This document shows positions 2,639 to 9,463 of a stretch of 56,017 bases of DNA, piece after piece (position 1 is the first letter of the stretch; every line of letters starts with the position of its first letter). A program made the translations under genes and the position numbers. Origin of the DNA: Tissierellia bacterium (GTDB lineage: Bacteria > Bacillota > Clostridia > Peptostreptococcales > Acidaminobacteraceae); contig JAAYOV010000003.1 of NCBI GenBank assembly GCA_012520095.1, forward strand, positions 1-56,017, read 5' to 3'. Below the pieces are notes generated by a model. It was not told the DNA's origin. It saw nothing but the letters and a program-made list of their open reading frames with translations, and ran no database searches.

Positions 2639-3373
2639 TCATTCTTGTTCTAATCTCCCAAGACGAGTCACAGGAAGCTCAATATGAGAAAGAATCTCTT
2701 CATCAGAAACACTTGCAAGCACGACGCACGCAGGCCCTGCAGACTCACATGCCCAATCGGGCAAATCCACATCCGGAAGGAAGCGAAGTCCCGACGTCCT
2801 TGCCATTTCTTCCGCTTCATAGATACATCCCTTCGATCCCACGGGCAGTATCTCATTGACTCCTTCCAAAGAAACCAGCTCGCGTATGAGAGTAAGTGGC
2901 ACAATGTCGCGCCGCTCTTCCATGACAGCATCTCCCACTTTGGGAAGCCCCAATGCGCAGACGACAGAACCGGCCGGAGAAACAGAAGGAGTAAAATCAT
3001 CTCCCACCGATCCGATAACGGTAATGCCCGTTCCGGTCTGGATCGTCGCAATATTCTCCTCTGTGCTTCCATTTAAAATCATCGAGGAATCGATCCCGAT
3101 CTCCTCAAGGGCCATCGCAACGCCTCTACTGACTCCCTGCCCGGTGGGCATCCACTCATTGGCCAAAGTCAACACGACAATGTCAGGCCCGGCGCCCTGT
3201 GCTAAGAGCTCCATGAGGGGCACTCTGCATAAAAAATACCCCACGACTTCTTCTGAGACGTGTACGACATCTCCCTCTTTTGCCCCGATTGCGCCGATCG
3301 AATCACAGGCCAGTAGAAATTTCTTCCCCTCAACCTCAAAAAGAGTCAAATCGCGAAAACGAGTGACTTTCAT
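2639..3373 (-). CDS. cblS: Alpha-ribazole kinase CblS (AIR-synthase-like fold)
   Basis: A 244-residue protein of the PurM/ThiL-like ATP-binding superfamily. Visible motifs are the N-terminal RDLTLFEVEGKKFLLACDS, the GAIGAKEGDVV segment, LNGSTEENIATIQTGTG and LPVGSKGCIYEAEEMA, a pattern I recognise from proteins annotated as AIR synthase related in B12 loci. Characterised CblS phosphorylates alpha-ribazole, feeding the lower ligand to CobS without CobT. It is the last gene of the cobalamin operon and its ATG overlaps the stop of cblT (ATGA). ThiL or HypE were considered, but the B12 operon context and the neighbouring S component favour CblS. The assignment is by memory of the family plus context. 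Confidence 0.8.
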   Translation of the reverse strand: MKVTRFRDLTLFEVEGKKFLLACDSIGAIGAKEGDVVHVSEEVVGYFLCRVPLMELLAQGAGPDIVVLTLANEWMPTGQGVSRGVAMALEEIGIDSSMILNGSTEENIATIQTGTGITVIGSVGDDFTPSVSPAGSVVCALGLPKVGDAVMEERRDIVPLTLIRELVSLEGVNEILPVGSKGCIYEAEEMARTSGLRFLPDVDLPDWACESAGPACVVLASVSDEEILSHIELPVTRLGRLEQE

Positions 3374-3879
3374 CTCAGTCTCTTTCCAATTGCCTCATAG
3401 AGACCGGCAGCAAGGAGAATATTTGCAAGCGCTGCCAAGCTTAACGGTAAAATTAGCATATAAAACAAGAACATTAGCGTCGGCGTCATCGACATAACAT
3501 AAGCGATCCAGGAAGCGAGGAACAATGTTACGGGTCCGTTAAACATATAAGCAACGATTACGGCGACTATTTTTTGCTTTGTATATAGAAAACCGAAAGA
3601 TGCACAGGCTATCCCCATAAATATCATGACGACCATATGCGACTGAATCCCCTGTGGAAAGCCATGGATGATGGCCGTCATCAGGTGTCCGATTGCTCCT
3701 ATCACCGCACCGAGCATCGGTGAAAGATATAAAGCACCGAAGAAACCCGGCAGGGAATCAAAGGCAATCGTCGAACCAATTCCCGGCATTGGCAGAGAAA
3801 TATAGCTGCCCAATACACTGATTCCAATTAAGAGTCCGCTGATAGCCAGTTTTGCCGGCGAAAGTTTTGATTTATCCAT
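3370..3879 (-). CDS. cblT: ECF-type S component, probable alpha-ribazole transporter CblT
   Basis: A 169-residue integral membrane protein with about five to six hydrophobic segments. The N-terminal region (KLAISGLLIGISVLGSYISL, then GIGSTIAFDSLPGFFGALYL) resembles substrate-binding S components of ECF vitamin transporters. It lies between cobC and cblS, overlapping cobC by 8 bases and cblS by 4. In Firmicutes that lack CobT, the CblT-CblS pair takes up and phosphorylates alpha-ribazole, and the adjacency to cblS is the main ground for the specific name. The energising ECF ATPases and T component are not in the window. Another B12-related substrate cannot be excluded. Confidence 0.78.
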   Translation of the reverse strand: MDKSKLSPAKLAISGLLIGISVLGSYISLPMPGIGSTIAFDSLPGFFGALYLSPMLGAVIGAIGHLMTAIIHGFPQGIQSHMVVMIFMGIACASFGFLYTKQKIVAVIVAYMFNGPVTLFLASWIAYVMSMTPTLMFLFYMLILPLSLAALANILLAAGLYEAIGKRLR

Positions 3880-4438
3880 CGATTATGCCTCCCGTTAAAT
3901 CTCTGAATTTCCATTGACCGTCATCGTTAAAAAGTAACCCTCTGTGTCCGCAGGGAAACGGTTCAACCATCTCTTTTTGCATCCAAAAGTTCATCAAAGA
4001 GTGAATTACCCCGCTGTGAGTGATGAGCGTGTATTGGCCTTCCTCAAGCTCTTGGGCAAATTCTCTCACTCGCCTATGAAATTCGAAATAGCTCTCTCCT
4101 TGAGGGAAAGTAAAACTCTCCGGCTCACGCATCCAATCTTGTACATCTTGAGAAAATGCTTCTTCCAACTCTGAAAAAGTATGACCTTCAAAGACTCCCA
4201 TGTCAATTTCACGAATCCTGGAATCGACTCTCAACGGCACGTCGTGCGCTTCAGCCATGGCCTGCGCCAAAATCTTGCATCGCAAGAGATCGGAGGTGAT
4301 CAGCTCTCCACAGACCGGGTTCTTAAGAAGCTGCTCAAACTGCCTTCGGCCCTCGTGCGAATAGGTCTCATCTTTTTTGGGAAAGCGCTTCTCTAAGGAA
4401 GCTATCGTCTGTGGATGGCGAATTAAGACAACATGCAT
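3872..4438 (-). CDS. cobC: Alpha-ribazole phosphatase, histidine phosphatase family
   Basis: A 188-residue phosphoglycerate-mutase-like phosphatase that would remove the phosphate from alpha-ribazole 5'-phosphate or adenosylcobalamin 5'-phosphate. ATG 4438 is chosen because the conserved strand starts there (MHVVLIRHPQT); an upstream in-frame extension runs through the end of cobS. The catalytic histidine sits in LIRHPQT, where the family usually has RHGET, a small deviation. The second conserved histidine is in YTLITHSGVIHSLMNF, and EIDMGVFEGHTFSELE is the family's acid-residue region. The gene overlaps cobS by 16 bases and cblT by 8, within the riboswitch-controlled operon. Confidence 0.87.
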   Translation of the reverse strand: MHVVLIRHPQTIASLEKRFPKKDETYSHEGRRQFEQLLKNPVCGELITSDLLRCKILAQAMAEAHDVPLRVDSRIREIDMGVFEGHTFSELEEAFSQDVQDWMREPESFTFPQGESYFEFHRRVREFAQELEEGQYTLITHSGVIHSLMNFWMQKEMVEPFPCGHRGLLFNDDGQWKFRDLTGGIIDG

Positions 4439-5154
4439 AGCCCGCCGCCCATCAACAATGCAAGTCCATATGTAAGAGATGACACTTCGATGATCATCCC
4501 CACTCCATCTCCGCTGAGCCCTCCCCAATTCTTCTTTAGGGTGTCTGCCAAAAGCAGCCCGATCAGAATCGACAGAACTGCCGCCGCAAGAGATCGAACC
4601 CCTAAAATCCACACAGAAAGCGCCCCGGTTAGCAAAACCCCGAAGACCAAGTCAATCGGCTTGATGGCATCGAAAAATATTTTTCCAAGCCCCTCGCTTC
4701 GATAATGGCTCTGGCCAAATCCGCTGACCATGGCGCTGAGCCTTCCGACGACAGGCATGAGGAAAACTGCTTTTTCATGTACATTAAACAAATAAACATA
4801 TAGAAGCGAGGCTGAAATGAGTCCAATGGCGCCGAACGCTCCAAGCGAAGGATCCTTCAGGATCTCCCACTGCCCTTTCTTATCGCGGCCGCTCATGAGC
4901 GCATCCAAACTGTCAGCCAATCCGTCCATATGAAGCCCTCCGGTAAGCATAAAATAGAGAATGTAAAGCAGCACTCCCTTTGGAAGGCGAGGCTGGAAAA
5001 GAAGAATTTTGGAGGCTCCGTAGACGATCGCCCCGATCAAAGCGCCAACGAGAGGAAAGAAAAACATCCCTCTTTTGAAATGCTCTTCGCTCCACTCCAC
5101 CTTTCCAACCGGAATACGCGTAAAAAAAGACAGCATCAGAAGAATACTTTTCAC
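4423..5154 (-). CDS. cobS: Adenosylcobinamide-GDP ribazoletransferase
   Basis: A 243-residue membrane enzyme that joins alpha-ribazole (or its phosphate) to adenosylcobinamide-GDP to give cobalamin. The family signature GGLHMDGLADSLDALMSGRD is present near residue 92, and several hydrophobic segments follow, as usual for CobS. Start is GTG 5154, with AAGGA upstream inside the spacer after cobU. Length is normal (about 245). It lies between cobU and cobC in the nucleotide-loop assembly block, and its lower-ligand substrate is probably supplied by the CblT-CblS pair encoded downstream. Confidence 0.95.
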   Translation of the reverse strand: MKSILLMLSFFTRIPVGKVEWSEEHFKRGMFFFPLVGALIGAIVYGASKILLFQPRLPKGVLLYILYFMLTGGLHMDGLADSLDALMSGRDKKGQWEILKDPSLGAFGAIGLISASLLYVYLFNVHEKAVFLMPVVGRLSAMVSGFGQSHYRSEGLGKIFFDAIKPIDLVFGVLLTGALSVWILGVRSLAAAVLSILIGLLLADTLKKNWGGLSGDGVGMIIEVSSLTYGLALLMGGGLCMLS

Positions 5155-5156
5155 AA

Positions 5157-5708
5157 TTATTCCTTTATTTTTAGAGGAATTCCCGCGACCATCAAGGTCA
5201 CTTCAGACGCCCTTGCACCCACTCGTTGATGCGCTCTTCCCGAGATGTCACGAAAAACATTTCCCAGCCAGCTCTCCGGAACGACTCCGAGGCCGACCTC
5301 ATTGGATACGATCGCACTCGGGGTACTCCCGAGAGCGTCGATGAGCTCATCGATCTGCTCGTGGATGATCTCCTCCACTTCCTGCAATTCCTCTGCAGAC
5401 CACTGAAAGTGCTCTACCTTTTCTTCTTTTTCAAAGAGAAGCCGGCTGAGCATAAAAGTAAGGCAGTCGACAATGACAAAATCCGCCTCTTGCAATTCTT
5501 TTTTGTGTGCAGAAAAATCGCGATAGGCTTCCAGCGTCGTCCAACTCTTCGGGCGATCGGCCTGATGGCGCTTGACTCGTTCTTTCATGCTATCGTCCTT
5601 TGCATTGGCGGTAGCCACATAGATTACTTTTTCATGAGAAGAAGCGAGTTCTTGCGCATACCTGCTTTTGCCGCTTCTTACGCCTCCGAGAACCAAGTGT
5701 AAACTCAT
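5157..5708 (-). CDS. cobU: Adenosylcobinamide kinase / adenosylcobinamide-phosphate guanylyltransferase
   Basis: A 183-residue bifunctional enzyme that phosphorylates adenosylcobinamide and then transfers GMP to it. The P-loop is at the N-terminus (LVLGGVRSGKSRYAQELA), followed by HQADRPKSWTT with the histidine that takes GMP in CobU, and by VSNEVGLGVVPES typical of the family. ATG 5708 is chosen over a longer reading that would begin inside cobD, because the core starts at MSLHLVLGG. It overlaps cobD by 4 bases (ATGA), indicating translational coupling. Length is close to the family norm. Confidence 0.94.
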   Translation of the reverse strand: MSLHLVLGGVRSGKSRYAQELASSHEKVIYVATANAKDDSMKERVKRHQADRPKSWTTLEAYRDFSAHKKELQEADFVIVDCLTFMLSRLLFEKEEKVEHFQWSAEELQEVEEIIHEQIDELIDALGSTPSAIVSNEVGLGVVPESWLGNVFRDISGRAHQRVGARASEVTLMVAGIPLKIKE

Positions 5709-6715
5709 GTCAGTACCTCTTTCATCGCCTGCAATAGTGCTCGATTCTCCTTCTCTGTTCGAACACACATTCGAAAGTCATGAGAATCTAAAGAGTAAAA
5801 ATCTTCACAGCTTCTGAGATAGAATCCCTTCTCCAACATCTTTGTGTGAAAACCATCTTCTTCACACCGGAAGAAGAGAAAGTTCGCATGCGGGAGCGGT
5901 CCCCTCAACCCGAGAGATTGAAGTCCGCGTAGTAATAATTCTCGCTGCTCTCGTATCAGCTTATACGTGTCATCTTTAAAGGCATGGTCTGCCAGAAGCT
6001 TTGGAACAATCCCCTGGGCAAAGGCGTTGACACTCCAAGGCTCTTTTTGCTTGATCATTTTCTTGATTAAAAATTCATCGGCAAGAATATAACCGAGTCG
6101 AATGCCCGCAATTGCATAGAACTTTGTCATGGATCTCAGCCTGATCACTCCTTGTGAGTGACTTGGAAGCTCCTGCTCAACGAAGTCCAGAAAGGACTCA
6201 TCCAGAAGCAAGATGACTCCCATCTCCCTACATCGCGAGATCAAAAGCTCCACTTTTTCTTTTCCCAACATAGTTGATGTCGGATTATTCGGCTCGCAGA
6301 CAACGACGAGATCCGGAGATTCCTTTTTCAGCCAATCCAATAGCTTCTGAATGTCGATCTCACAGGAATCCCTCTCTCTTAAAAACGGAAGAATCTTCCA
6401 TCCCGATGCTTGAAAGGCTCTCCTGTATTCATTGAATGTCGGTTCTATGATGGCAACTCGTCCCGGTACAAGTGTTCTGGCAAGAAGGTAGAGAAGTTCG
6501 GTTGCGCCGTTTCCCAAAAGAATTCTCTGCGGCAGCTCTTTGAGATGCGAAGCGAGCGACTCCACAGCTTCCTCTGCCAAGATCTCGGGGTAGGTATGCG
6601 CTTCATCTAAAATACGCAACACCTTGTCCTTTACCCACTCCGGCATCCCGAGAGGGTTGATGTTGACGCTGTAATCGATCACTCCTTCTCGTCTGATTCC
6701 TCCATGGCGATTCAT
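5705..6715 (-). CDS. cobD: L-threonine-O-3-phosphate decarboxylase (aminotransferase fold)
   Basis: A 336-residue PLP enzyme of the aminotransferase class I/II fold that makes (R)-1-amino-2-propanol O-2-phosphate for the cobalamin side arm. The start NRHGGIRREGVIDYSVNINP is the CobD/HisC-like N-terminus; VCEPNNPTS and LLLDESFLDF are cofactor-binding regions, and SMTKFYAIAGIRLGY carries the PLP lysine. HisC is the main alternative, but the position between cbiB and cobU in a B12 operon makes CobD strongly preferred. It overlaps cbiB and cobU by 4 bases each. Confidence 0.92.
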   Translation of the reverse strand: MNRHGGIRREGVIDYSVNINPLGMPEWVKDKVLRILDEAHTYPEILAEEAVESLASHLKELPQRILLGNGATELLYLLARTLVPGRVAIIEPTFNEYRRAFQASGWKILPFLRERDSCEIDIQKLLDWLKKESPDLVVVCEPNNPTSTMLGKEKVELLISRCREMGVILLLDESFLDFVEQELPSHSQGVIRLRSMTKFYAIAGIRLGYILADEFLIKKMIKQKEPWSVNAFAQGIVPKLLADHAFKDDTYKLIREQRELLLRGLQSLGLRGPLPHANFLFFRCEEDGFHTKMLEKGFYLRSCEDFYSLDSHDFRMCVRTEKENRALLQAMKEVLT

Positions 6716-7650
6716 GCTTGGCCTCCTGCAAAAAAGCTGATAAGTAGGAAGATAGCTTCCACGACAAGGATAATTTTATTCATACGCAAAATGTCATCTT
6801 TATCAACAGGCCTTGTTTCATCACCGAGAGTGGCCTTTTGCACTTTTTTTCCAAAATAATGCGCGTCGCCTCCCAGAGTAATTCCTAAAAGCCCCGCTGC
6901 TGCAGCCTCCGGAAACCCCGAATTCGGGCTCACATGCTTTCTTGCATCTCGCAAGAGCACTCTCCATCCGCGAGAAATATCCAATCCGCTCACAGCTCCG
7001 CTTATCAGCATCAAAATGGCACCGATGCGAGCGGGAATATAATTGGCCAGATCATCGATTTTTGCCGAGGCGCATCCGATTTTTCGATATCTTTCATCTT
7101 TATATCCGACCATGGAGTCGAGCGTGTTGATGCATTTATAGAGTACTCCGGCCTGAAGTCCAAATCCAAACGGCGAAGCAGCTAATATGTAAAAGAGAGG
7201 CGCCGTCAGTCCGTCAACCGTATTTTCAGCGAGTGTCTCGATCGTCCCCTTGATGATCTCTTCTTCACTCAGTGCAGACGTATCACGACCGACGATTTCT
7301 CCAAGGCGCTGTCTCGATTCAGAAAGTGAGTCTCTCTCAAGGGATTCCATGACCCTAAAGCCGGATTTTCTCAATGTAGCCCCACAGAGTAAAAAATAAT
7401 ATAGCGTTGTGCTGAAGATGAAATGACCCCATGGAAGCTTTGAAAAGCCCCACAAAAGCGCCGATGTGATGCCACCTGCGCCTGCCAGCGTCATCAACAA
7501 TAAAACCACACCGCCTGAATACGTATTTCCCAATATTCTGCGGATATGCTTTTGTAAAAACTCGATCCAGCGCCCGACAAGAGCGATGGGATGCAAAGGA
7601 GTCAGTGGATCGGGTATCAACATGTCAAGGACAATCGCCACACTCAGCAT
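6712..7650 (-). CDS. cbiB: Adenosylcobinamide-phosphate synthase CbiB
   Basis: A 312-residue polytopic membrane protein that couples aminopropanol phosphate to adenosylcobyric acid. Typical motifs are LDMLIPDPLTPLHPIALVGR near the N-terminus, RDTSALSEEEI, ETLAENTVDGLTAPLFY and PNSGFPEAAAAGLLGI. Length fits the family (about 310-320). The ATG overlaps the stop of the shortened cobQ by 7 bases, so the truncation of that gene is not an assembly artefact at its 3' end. It is coupled to cobD downstream by a 4-base overlap. Confidence 0.94.
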   Translation of the reverse strand: MLSVAIVLDMLIPDPLTPLHPIALVGRWIEFLQKHIRRILGNTYSGGVVLLLMTLAGAGGITSALLWGFSKLPWGHFIFSTTLYYFLLCGATLRKSGFRVMESLERDSLSESRQRLGEIVGRDTSALSEEEIIKGTIETLAENTVDGLTAPLFYILAASPFGFGLQAGVLYKCINTLDSMVGYKDERYRKIGCASAKIDDLANYIPARIGAILMLISGAVSGLDISRGWRVLLRDARKHVSPNSGFPEAAAAGLLGITLGGDAHYFGKKVQKATLGDETRPVDKDDILRMNKIILVVEAIFLLISFFAGGQA

Positions 7651-8429
7651 CCGATGATTTCCTCAATCTTATTTATGTCAAGATGTTCCTCCAGAACACC
7701 CGCCCACCTGTCGAGTTCTCTATCTTCCTCTTCAGCTTCACGGCTCAGCTCCGTATACGGCAGTACACCGAGACACGCAATGCCCATCTTCTCTTCTATT
7801 TCCTCGATGGCGGGAGTGAGAAGAGTGACGTCTCCTCGGAACTTGTTGATGATAAATCCCTTGATTCGTGATCTGTCTTCTTCATCGAGAAGGAGCTGCG
7901 TGCCGTAGAGTGAGGCAAACACCCCTCCTCTATCGATATCTCCGATGAGGACAACCGGAGCATCGACCGCATGAGCAAGTCCCATATTGACAAAATCTCC
8001 CTTTCGAAGATTGATTTCCGCAGGTGAACCGGCGCCTTCTATGATCATGATCTCATATTCTCTGCTTAGCGAGTGGTACGCTGCAAGCATCTCCTCACGC
8101 AGAGATTCTTTCATCTTGTAATACTCAGCCGCGGGAATAACTCCCAAATTCTTTCCTAAAAAGATCACTTGAGATCCTTGATTCGAGACGGGCTTTAGCA
8201 AGATCGGATTCATTCTCACATCGGGGCGCAAGCGGCATGCTCTCGCTTGTAACGCCTGAGAATGACTGATCTCCTTGCCCTCAGAGGTAATCACGGACAG
8301 ACTCGACATATTTTGAGACTTGAACGGACAAGGTTTAAATCCCTTATTGCTAAAAAGCCGTCCGATTCCGGCGGCAACGAGAGTTTTTCCCGCAGAAGAG
8401 GCGGTTCCTTGAAACATAATGTTTTTCAT
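7644..8429 (-). CDS. cobQ: Cobyric acid synthase CobQ/CbiP lacking the glutaminase domain
   Basis: A 261-residue protein; usual CobQ is about 480-510. The N-terminal ATP-dependent amidoligase domain looks complete: MFQGTASSAGKT (P-loop), PFKSQNMS, RMNPILLKP, EGAGSPAEINLR, DIDRGGVFASLYGT, GFIINKFRGD and LGVLPY. The class I glutamine amidotransferase domain with its Cys-His dyad is absent. At about residue 237 (base 7721) the chain passes straight into ELDRWAGVLEEHLDINKI, which resembles the extreme C-terminal helix of full-length CobQ, so the middle seems cleanly excised. ATG 8429 is chosen because GGAG lies 8 bases upstream and the motif core begins there. It is the first gene after the cobalamin riboswitch. 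Ammonia must come from solution or from a partner glutaminase if the enzyme is active. Confidence 0.85.
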   Translation of the reverse strand: MKNIMFQGTASSAGKTLVAAGIGRLFSNKGFKPCPFKSQNMSSLSVITSEGKEISHSQALQARACRLRPDVRMNPILLKPVSNQGSQVIFLGKNLGVIPAAEYYKMKESLREEMLAAYHSLSREYEIMIIEGAGSPAEINLRKGDFVNMGLAHAVDAPVVLIGDIDRGGVFASLYGTQLLLDEEDRSRIKGFIINKFRGDVTLLTPAIEEIEEKMGIACLGVLPYTELSREAEEEDRELDRWAGVLEEHLDINKIEEIIGC

Positions 8430-8488: not shown

Positions 8489-8616
8489 CTGTGACAATGC
8501 TCTTCCCTCCGAAGTATCGCAGTCTGGTATTCTGGCTGATTGCATACGCAAATGACAGTAGCGGGGGCTGCAGAGGATTCTCACCTCTTTCCCAGTAGCT
8601 ATATTCTGTTGGCAAG
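8464..8616 (-). promoter_or_regulatory. Cobalamin riboswitch of the cob operon
   Basis: Read on the minus strand, the leader contains the conserved core GGGAAAGAGGTGAGAATCC (8574-8592), then GCAGCCCCCGCTACTG (8556-8571), then a B12-box-like CAGCCAGAATACCAGACTGC (8519-8538), in the order of cobalamin aptamers. A terminator hairpin follows at 8464-8488, then the cobQ ribosome-binding site. Binding of cobalamin should therefore stop transcription of the whole operon. The aptamer starts directly after the stop codon of the MarR-type gene; no separate promoter was identified with confidence, so it may be read from that gene's transcript. Exact ends are approximate. Confidence 0.92.
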
Positions 8617-8620
8617 AAAA

Positions 8621-9463
8621 CTAATTATCTAAAAACTGCTTGGTATATATATAGGTGTTCTCCTTGTTCTCATTTGTTTCATATTCATGGAAAAAGTATC
8701 CGTTTTTATGCAGCAGTTTTTGCAGCGGTATATTGCCTTCTACACAAGGAATGTATATCGTCCCTATATAATTGGAGCGATACCATTCTTCGAATTCTCT
8801 AAATAACTCCATCCCTTGAAGGATGATATCGGAGAGTTGGTGAAAGCGAACATCGTTGACGTAAATGTCTCCGGAGTGTTCCGCTTTTGAAAACTTAAAC
8901 CAATTCAGAGAATACTGGCCGAAGCGCTCGACAAATAGCTGATCTTGCGGATCAATTTGATAAAAGCCACGATCCAATATCTTGCGAACGTCGGCACTGC
9001 CTGCAAGCGAGTAACTCGTATCTCGTTTGTAATTTTTAATCATGCACCACTTGAGATCGAGTTCGGCAAGAAACATCTCAATGAGACTCGAAAACTGCTC
9101 GACAAGGGCGGGGTTGACATTGGTCTCGAAAATCTGCTGGATCCTAAGATTTGCCTTTTCGACTTCTTCATAAAGTGTCTTCCCTCTACTCGTCAGATAG
9201 ACATTGACACGGCGCTTGTCACGAGGATCCGTCCTTCGATAGATCTGGCCGGCGGTCTCAAGCTTCTTCAGCGCCTTGGCAACCGTCGTCTTGTCGATCA
9301 AGAGATCACGGGATATATCGTACTGATTCGCTCCTTCATTCTCGTAAAGGTAGAGGATGTACGCATATTGCCCACGATTCAGACTTGTGTCTGTAAGAGT
9401 GTCTTCGTAGATTGTCTCAATCATGCGGGCAAGTTGCTCCACATAAGTTGCAATAGAATTCAT
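8621..9463 (-). CDS. MarR-type regulator with extra C-terminal domain (GNAT-like)
   Basis: A 280-residue protein, about twice the length of a simple MarR regulator. Residues 1 to about 140 form a MarR winged helix: RGQYAYILYLYENEGANQYD, DKTTVAKALKKLE and RRTDPRDKRRVNVYLT are typical. The second half (from about residue 145) is different; it contains FEEWYRSNYIGTIYIPCVEGNIPLQKLLHKNGYFFHEYE, hydrophilic and resembling the C-terminal part of a GNAT acetyltransferase, though I do not see a clear acetyl-CoA signature. It has a good promoter and no terminator before the riboswitch, so it may be cotranscribed with the cob operon. The ligand is unknown. Confidence 0.75.
   Translation of the reverse strand: MNSIATYVEQLARMIETIYEDTLTDTSLNRGQYAYILYLYENEGANQYDISRDLLIDKTTVAKALKKLETAGQIYRRTDPRDKRRVNVYLTSRGKTLYEEVEKANLRIQQIFETNVNPALVEQFSSLIEMFLAELDLKWCMIKNYKRDTSYSLAGSADVRKILDRGFYQIDPQDQLFVERFGQYSLNWFKFSKAEHSGDIYVNDVRFHQLSDIILQGMELFREFEEWYRSNYIGTIYIPCVEGNIPLQKLLHKNGYFFHEYETNENKENTYIYTKQFLDN

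Follow-up and report, generated by a model that had tools for sequence, protein, structure and literature searches.

An operon headed by a short cobQ

The stretch of DNA analysed here (the window) comprises 56,017 nucleotides of contig JAAYOV010000003.1 from the Tissierellia bacterium assembly GCA_012520095.1, a genome of 1.76 Mb in 126 contigs that is 96.8% complete. It carries a run of cobalamin genes on the (-) strand downstream of a cobalamin riboswitch aptamer (8505..8639, (-); RF00174, 46.3 bits, gathering threshold 31.5) and headed, as an earlier note on this DNA had proposed, by cobQ (7644-8429, (-)). The product of this first gene, a glutaminase-less cobyric acid synthase of 261 amino acids, is conserved in the genus, and its stop codon (TGA in ATGCTGA) overlaps the ATG of cbiB, an arrangement that had also been pointed out from the sequence. 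The adenosylcobinamide-phosphate synthase gene cbiB (6712..7650, (-); PF03186, E 8.5e-92; TIGR00380) is followed by cobD for threonine-phosphate decarboxylase (5705..6715, (-); TIGR01140, E 8.1e-81, slightly below the cut-off), cobU (5157..5768, (-); PF02283, E 2.7e-53), cobS (4423..5154, (-); TIGR00317, E 1.8e-38), a cobC-type alpha-ribazole phosphatase gene with a tentative start codon (3872..4555, (-); TIGR03162, E 3.9e-35, under the cut-off) and a gene for a CblT-like ECF transporter S component (3370..3879, (-); PF12822, E 3.7e-13). The last gene of the run (2639..3373, (-)), which has no match in Pfam or NCBIfam, is probably the one previously labelled CblS. Upstream of the riboswitch lies a gene (8621-9463) that encodes a MarR-type DNA-binding domain followed by about 150 C-terminal residues without a Pfam match, and this gene keeps the same place in the genus.

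Residues 2-236 of the short CobQ match positions 1-234 of the 480-position NCBIfam model for cobyric acid synthase, PRK00784 (351.8 bits, E 5.6e-105, cut-off 273), while the score against TIGR00313 (300.4 bits) falls just below the cut-off of 309.9 because half of the model is missing. Pfam recognizes only the CobQ/CobB-type nucleotide-binding domain. Neither GATase_3 nor any other glutaminase model in Pfam or NCBIfam matches the 261 residues, and alignment agrees that the domain, some 230 residues, is absent; the same chain therefore cannot hydrolyse glutamine. What is present begins with the synthase (ATP-dependent amidoligase) domain (residues 1-225; 7755..8429, (-)), in which the P-loop and the EGAGSPAEIN, GDIDRGGVFA and INKFRGD motifs are intact. 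In alignment with full-length relatives, a short linker (residues 226-237; 7719..7754, (-)) stands in place of the glutaminase domain, and the protein ends with the C-terminal helix of CobQ, ELDRWAGVLEEHLDINKIEEI (residues 238-258; 7656..7718, (-)). The kinship of this tail to CobQ, which the earlier note had proposed together with the loss of the glutaminase domain, is upheld by a last-helix profile built from 41 full-length CobQs, on which ELDRWAGVLEEHLDINKIEEI scores 28.1 bits and shuffles of the same tail reach at most 12.6; with 2000 shuffles per tail, none scored as high as the observed tail in any of the glutaminase-lost CobQs examined (29/29). Judged from its sequence, the short CobQ consists of a synthase domain that runs through a short linker into CobQ's own end. 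The AlphaFold model is compact (pLDDT 93), with helices predicted at residues 232-249 and 252-259, and the core synthase motifs are invariant across ten aligned short forms. Searching the PDB by phmmer, with the short CobQ as query, gave no match, and no structure of a CobQ synthase domain was found there by sequence.

Conservation in the genus and recurrence across Clostridia

A cobQ gene encoding 259-261 residues and followed by cbiB is also present in the other two genomes of the genus, with 69-75% protein identity. An assembly error or frameshift is ruled out, since the same gene occurs in three species as well as in other families, and the absence of an assembly-specific deletion removes one of the objections that the earlier note had foreseen. 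A contig of one of these same-genus genomes is identical to DUVM01000066.1, from a Tissierellia metagenome-assembled genome (MAG) whose name prefix, AS08sgBPME, is that used in a survey of biogas digesters (PMC7038595). Within the genus, pN for cobQ is 0.17-0.21 against a pS of 0.76-0.80, with synonymous sites near saturation, and by this measure of sequence divergence the short gene is under purifying selection.

The search for relatives of the short form that had been proposed earlier revealed the same glutaminase-less architecture in eight clostridial families, some of the genomes being near-complete and in few contigs, such as G141 (two contigs, 100% complete). Within the host's own taxonomic family, four of the genera that gave a match have short CobQs, and the searches of the order and class, which were samples whose frequencies are not estimates, added seven further families. 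Intermediate states are represented by proteins that are full-length, or nearly so, with a degenerate glutaminase domain devoid of its Cys (ALGQG in G009, AVAEG in G481 and GIGSS in L149, compared with GICGG), whereas in an independent collection 77 of the 80 best named relatives have the motif intact. A tree built solely from the synthase domains of 72 genomes requires nine state changes, at least six of which are forced by strongly supported branches. The direction of these changes was likely that of loss, because repeated regain of the same domain at the same place is implausible.

In many families cobQ stays in its place, either close to cbiB or overlapping it. This bears on the proposal that the short gene is a decaying remnant, for which it may be said that the loss of a glutaminase is a loss of function and that several carriers have small genomes. 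A frame that has remained intact in three species while synonymous sites became saturated, the conserved motifs, the retained junction and the occurrence of the gene in near-complete genomes of few contigs are difficult to reconcile with decay, which is accordingly regarded as very improbable.

Several divergent forms were encountered. An Oscillospiraceae MAG encodes a CobQ of 397 residues (L092:5995-7185) in which the glutaminase domain is partly deleted, including the Cys motif, and the C-terminal helix is kept. Two very divergent short CobQs (L170:5378-6247 and L174:6057-6935, from families f52 and f74) group together on a long branch, lack INKFRGD and are possibly a separate subfamily. The CobQs of G762 and G732, very divergent in sequence, may form such a subfamily.

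CbiA and the other glutaminases of the host

No second or full-length CobQ was found in the 96.8%-complete genome, leaving the short form as its only CobQ, and the possibility that it is merely a paralogue of an ordinary enzyme falls away. CbiA, whose possible absence had been raised in the earlier note, is present: contig C4 carries a corrin-ring operon (cbiC, cbiA, cbiET, cbiJ, cbiH, cbiG, cbiF, cbiD and cbiK) with most genes for building the ring. The nucleophilic Cys of the CbiA glutaminase has been replaced by Gly (ECGG to EGGG) in each of the genus's three genomes. Among 48 genomes carrying both enzymes, the CbiA Cys is lost, with Gly, Ser or Ala in its place, in 12 of the 15 with a glutaminase-lost CobQ and in none of the 33 with an intact CobQ (Fisher p 6.5e-9, uncorrected and ignoring relatedness). 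At least five separate losses of the CbiA Cys can be placed on the tree, all of them inside CobQ-lost lineages; the tree-aware chance of this is roughly 0.03, because these lineages make up half of the tree length, and an independent-pairs sign test (five pairs, 3.7 concordant and 0 discordant) gives a non-significant p of 0.125. Tree-aware support for the joint loss is moderate. The dead glutaminase domain of CbiA might have been expected to decay rapidly, a notion rejected on the observation that its rate of evolution only modestly exceeds that of the synthase domain, and it therefore probably keeps a structural role.

The association has exceptions. Three genomes with a short CobQ (G762, G081 and G042) keep the CbiA Cys, and no CbiA match was found in many others, G141 among them, which nevertheless keeps cobQ-cbiB; use of ammonia by the whole pathway is therefore not universal. 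In these relatives without a CbiA match, the short CobQ may be used only in salvage, and it is from them, together with the salvage-type genes of the window operon (CobU and the ECF S component), that a narrowed or changed role for the enzyme, such as completing the amides of salvaged corrinoids that are already partly amidated, could be argued. Such a role had been suggested for the present gene in the earlier note and appears unneeded here. The host has cbiA, most ring-building genes and no other CobQ, so that it would otherwise lack the step that forms cobyric acid, and the core synthase motifs are unchanged; as an account of this gene the suggestion is unlikely, though it may hold for the relatives lacking CbiA.

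It had also been suggested that a separate glutaminase might serve the short CobQ, which would then still depend on glutamine, with ammonia delivered in trans by another subunit as TrpG does for TrpE. Split arrangements of this kind are common among other class I amidotransferases (PMC3376133, Table 1). The whole host genome was searched with the Pfam models GATase_3 and GATase, which define the class I scope of the search, and no free-standing CobQ-type glutaminase was found. The other class I matches comprise CTP synthase, two PuuD-like hydrolases, and CbiA and a GatD-like protein, the last two with dead glutaminase sites. The two hydrolases are tandem proteins resembling gamma-glutamyl-GABA hydrolase (L010, host contig C56:3661-4922) whose Cys motifs, GICRG and GVCRG, are intact, and they offer the trans arrangement some footing. 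Across 18 genomes, the stronger GATase_3 matches were to CbiA, to full-length or degenerate CobQ, and to GatD- or HisH-type proteins. A GATase_3 fragment of 135 residues in G010, considered as a free-standing glutaminase, was discarded, as it adjoins a MurT gene at a contig end in the manner of a cut GatD. With no orphan class I glutaminase able to act in trans in the genome, and with the parallel loss of the CbiA nucleophile arguing for a general move away from glutamine, supply by a separate subunit is considered quite improbable.

In each of the genus's three genomes, the GatD-like protein has a MurT-like ligase as its neighbour (L005:1363-2070 on host contig C23, L249:1357-2109 and L250:1354-2091). 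Both catalytic residues are gone, with LTGNA, FTGNA or FIGNA in place of TICGG and TYVTG, TYLLG or TYLTG in place of TYLHG, and a third GATase_3 glutaminase is therefore dead here.

Glutamine supply differs among the surveyed genomes. No glutamine synthetase match was found in 8 of 28 glutaminase-lost genomes, whereas all 24 intact ones gave one (p 0.005, uncorrected). In many genomes, including that of the host, the sole glutamine-synthetase-like gene encodes a distant protein of 626-674 residues with a partial PF00120 match, a putative glutamine synthetase. Since the host keeps this gene, glutamine auxotrophy as a general cause of glutaminase loss does not provide the explanation here, and given that the glutaminase of its CTP synthase is also intact, glutamine is probably still available in the host.

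Free ammonia as the probable amide donor

The short CobQ is most probably, at odds of about three to one, a functional cobyric acid synthase whose nitrogen donor is free ammonia rather than glutamine, and of the suggestions made in the earlier note a need for free ammonia is the best supported. The dead glutaminase of CbiA is the strongest evidence for this reading. Using ATP, the synthase domain would activate carboxylates on the side chains of adenosylcobyrinic acid a,c-diamide, which NH3 from solution would then attack directly, four times, without the involvement of a glutaminase or an ammonia channel, the retained C-terminal helix presumably completing the synthase fold. CbiA, the preceding enzyme, would also have switched to ammonia in the genus because its nucleophilic Cys has become Gly; both enzymes would then be active with ammonia as the donor. 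Ammonia-rich habitats or amino-acid fermentation may have driven the change. Seen across these genomes, the short CobQ is best explained as one instance of a shift that has occurred repeatedly, in which free ammonia replaces glutamine in corrin amidation. The broader proposition, in which we place good though lesser confidence, is that the glutaminases of both corrin-amidating enzymes have been switched off together, and independently, in several clostridial lineages, which would draw all six corrin amides from free ammonia; CobQ would then join NAD synthetase as the second family of ATP-dependent amidotransferases to have a glutaminase-less form in nature.

Work on related enzymes provides precedents for parts of this scheme. 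In Staphylococcus aureus GatD, the C94G substitution abolishes glutamine-dependent amidation and leaves NH3-dependent amidation in place (PMC3266927), and C94A and H189A mutants have no glutaminase activity (PMC5871853). The CbiA described here is a natural counterpart, of the same GATase_3 family and with the same Cys to Gly change, whereas GatD C94G/MurT is a cell-wall enzyme mutated in the laboratory that retains the subunit. Even when NH3 is supplied, MurT reportedly depends on its partner GatD (PMC3266927), and activity of a synthase without a glutaminase partner is therefore not guaranteed. Short NAD synthetases that lack a glutaminase use free ammonia (PMC3376133), and among the eight amidotransferase families tabulated in that work, which do not include CobQ and CbiA, only NAD synthetase is without a glutaminase in some genomes. 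Like NadE, CobQ is an ATP-dependent amidating enzyme found both with and without a glutaminase domain, and the short CobQ has no glutaminase in its chain and no candidate class I subunit in its genome; the two differ in that synthase fold and glutaminase class are unrelated, and in that short NadE has been proposed to be ancestral, whereas CobQ probably lost its domain from within full-length lineages. A free-standing synthase that does share the fold of the short CobQ, and has no glutaminase, is dethiobiotin synthetase (BioD), the best structural match of the predicted model (1dbs, E 2.3e-10, TM 0.63-0.72), which shares only 17-20% identity and acts on another substrate in another reaction. 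With canonical CobQ/CbiP, which amidates adenosylcobyrinic acid a,c-diamide four times at the expense of glutamine, the short protein has in common the synthase domain (PRK00784 positions 1-234), the C-terminal helix, the place before cbiB and the cbiB/cobD/cobU/cobS context, and it differs in lacking the C-terminal class I glutaminase (GATase_3) with its Cys and His.

The amide nitrogens in B12 synthesis have been described as derived from glutamine (PMC7242693), and no report of a glutaminase-less CobQ was found in a literature search that mostly left out subscription journals. A recurrent form of this kind suggests that the coupling of B12 amidation to glutamine can be dropped, and in the short enzymes nature provides a test of the contribution made by the glutaminase domain. 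A synthase of 260 residues is a small target for structural work and possibly a simpler catalyst for cell-free B12 synthesis, in which glutamine has been regenerated (PMC10449867). In annotation, one curated CobQ model (PRK00784) takes the short protein for an ordinary cobyric acid synthase.
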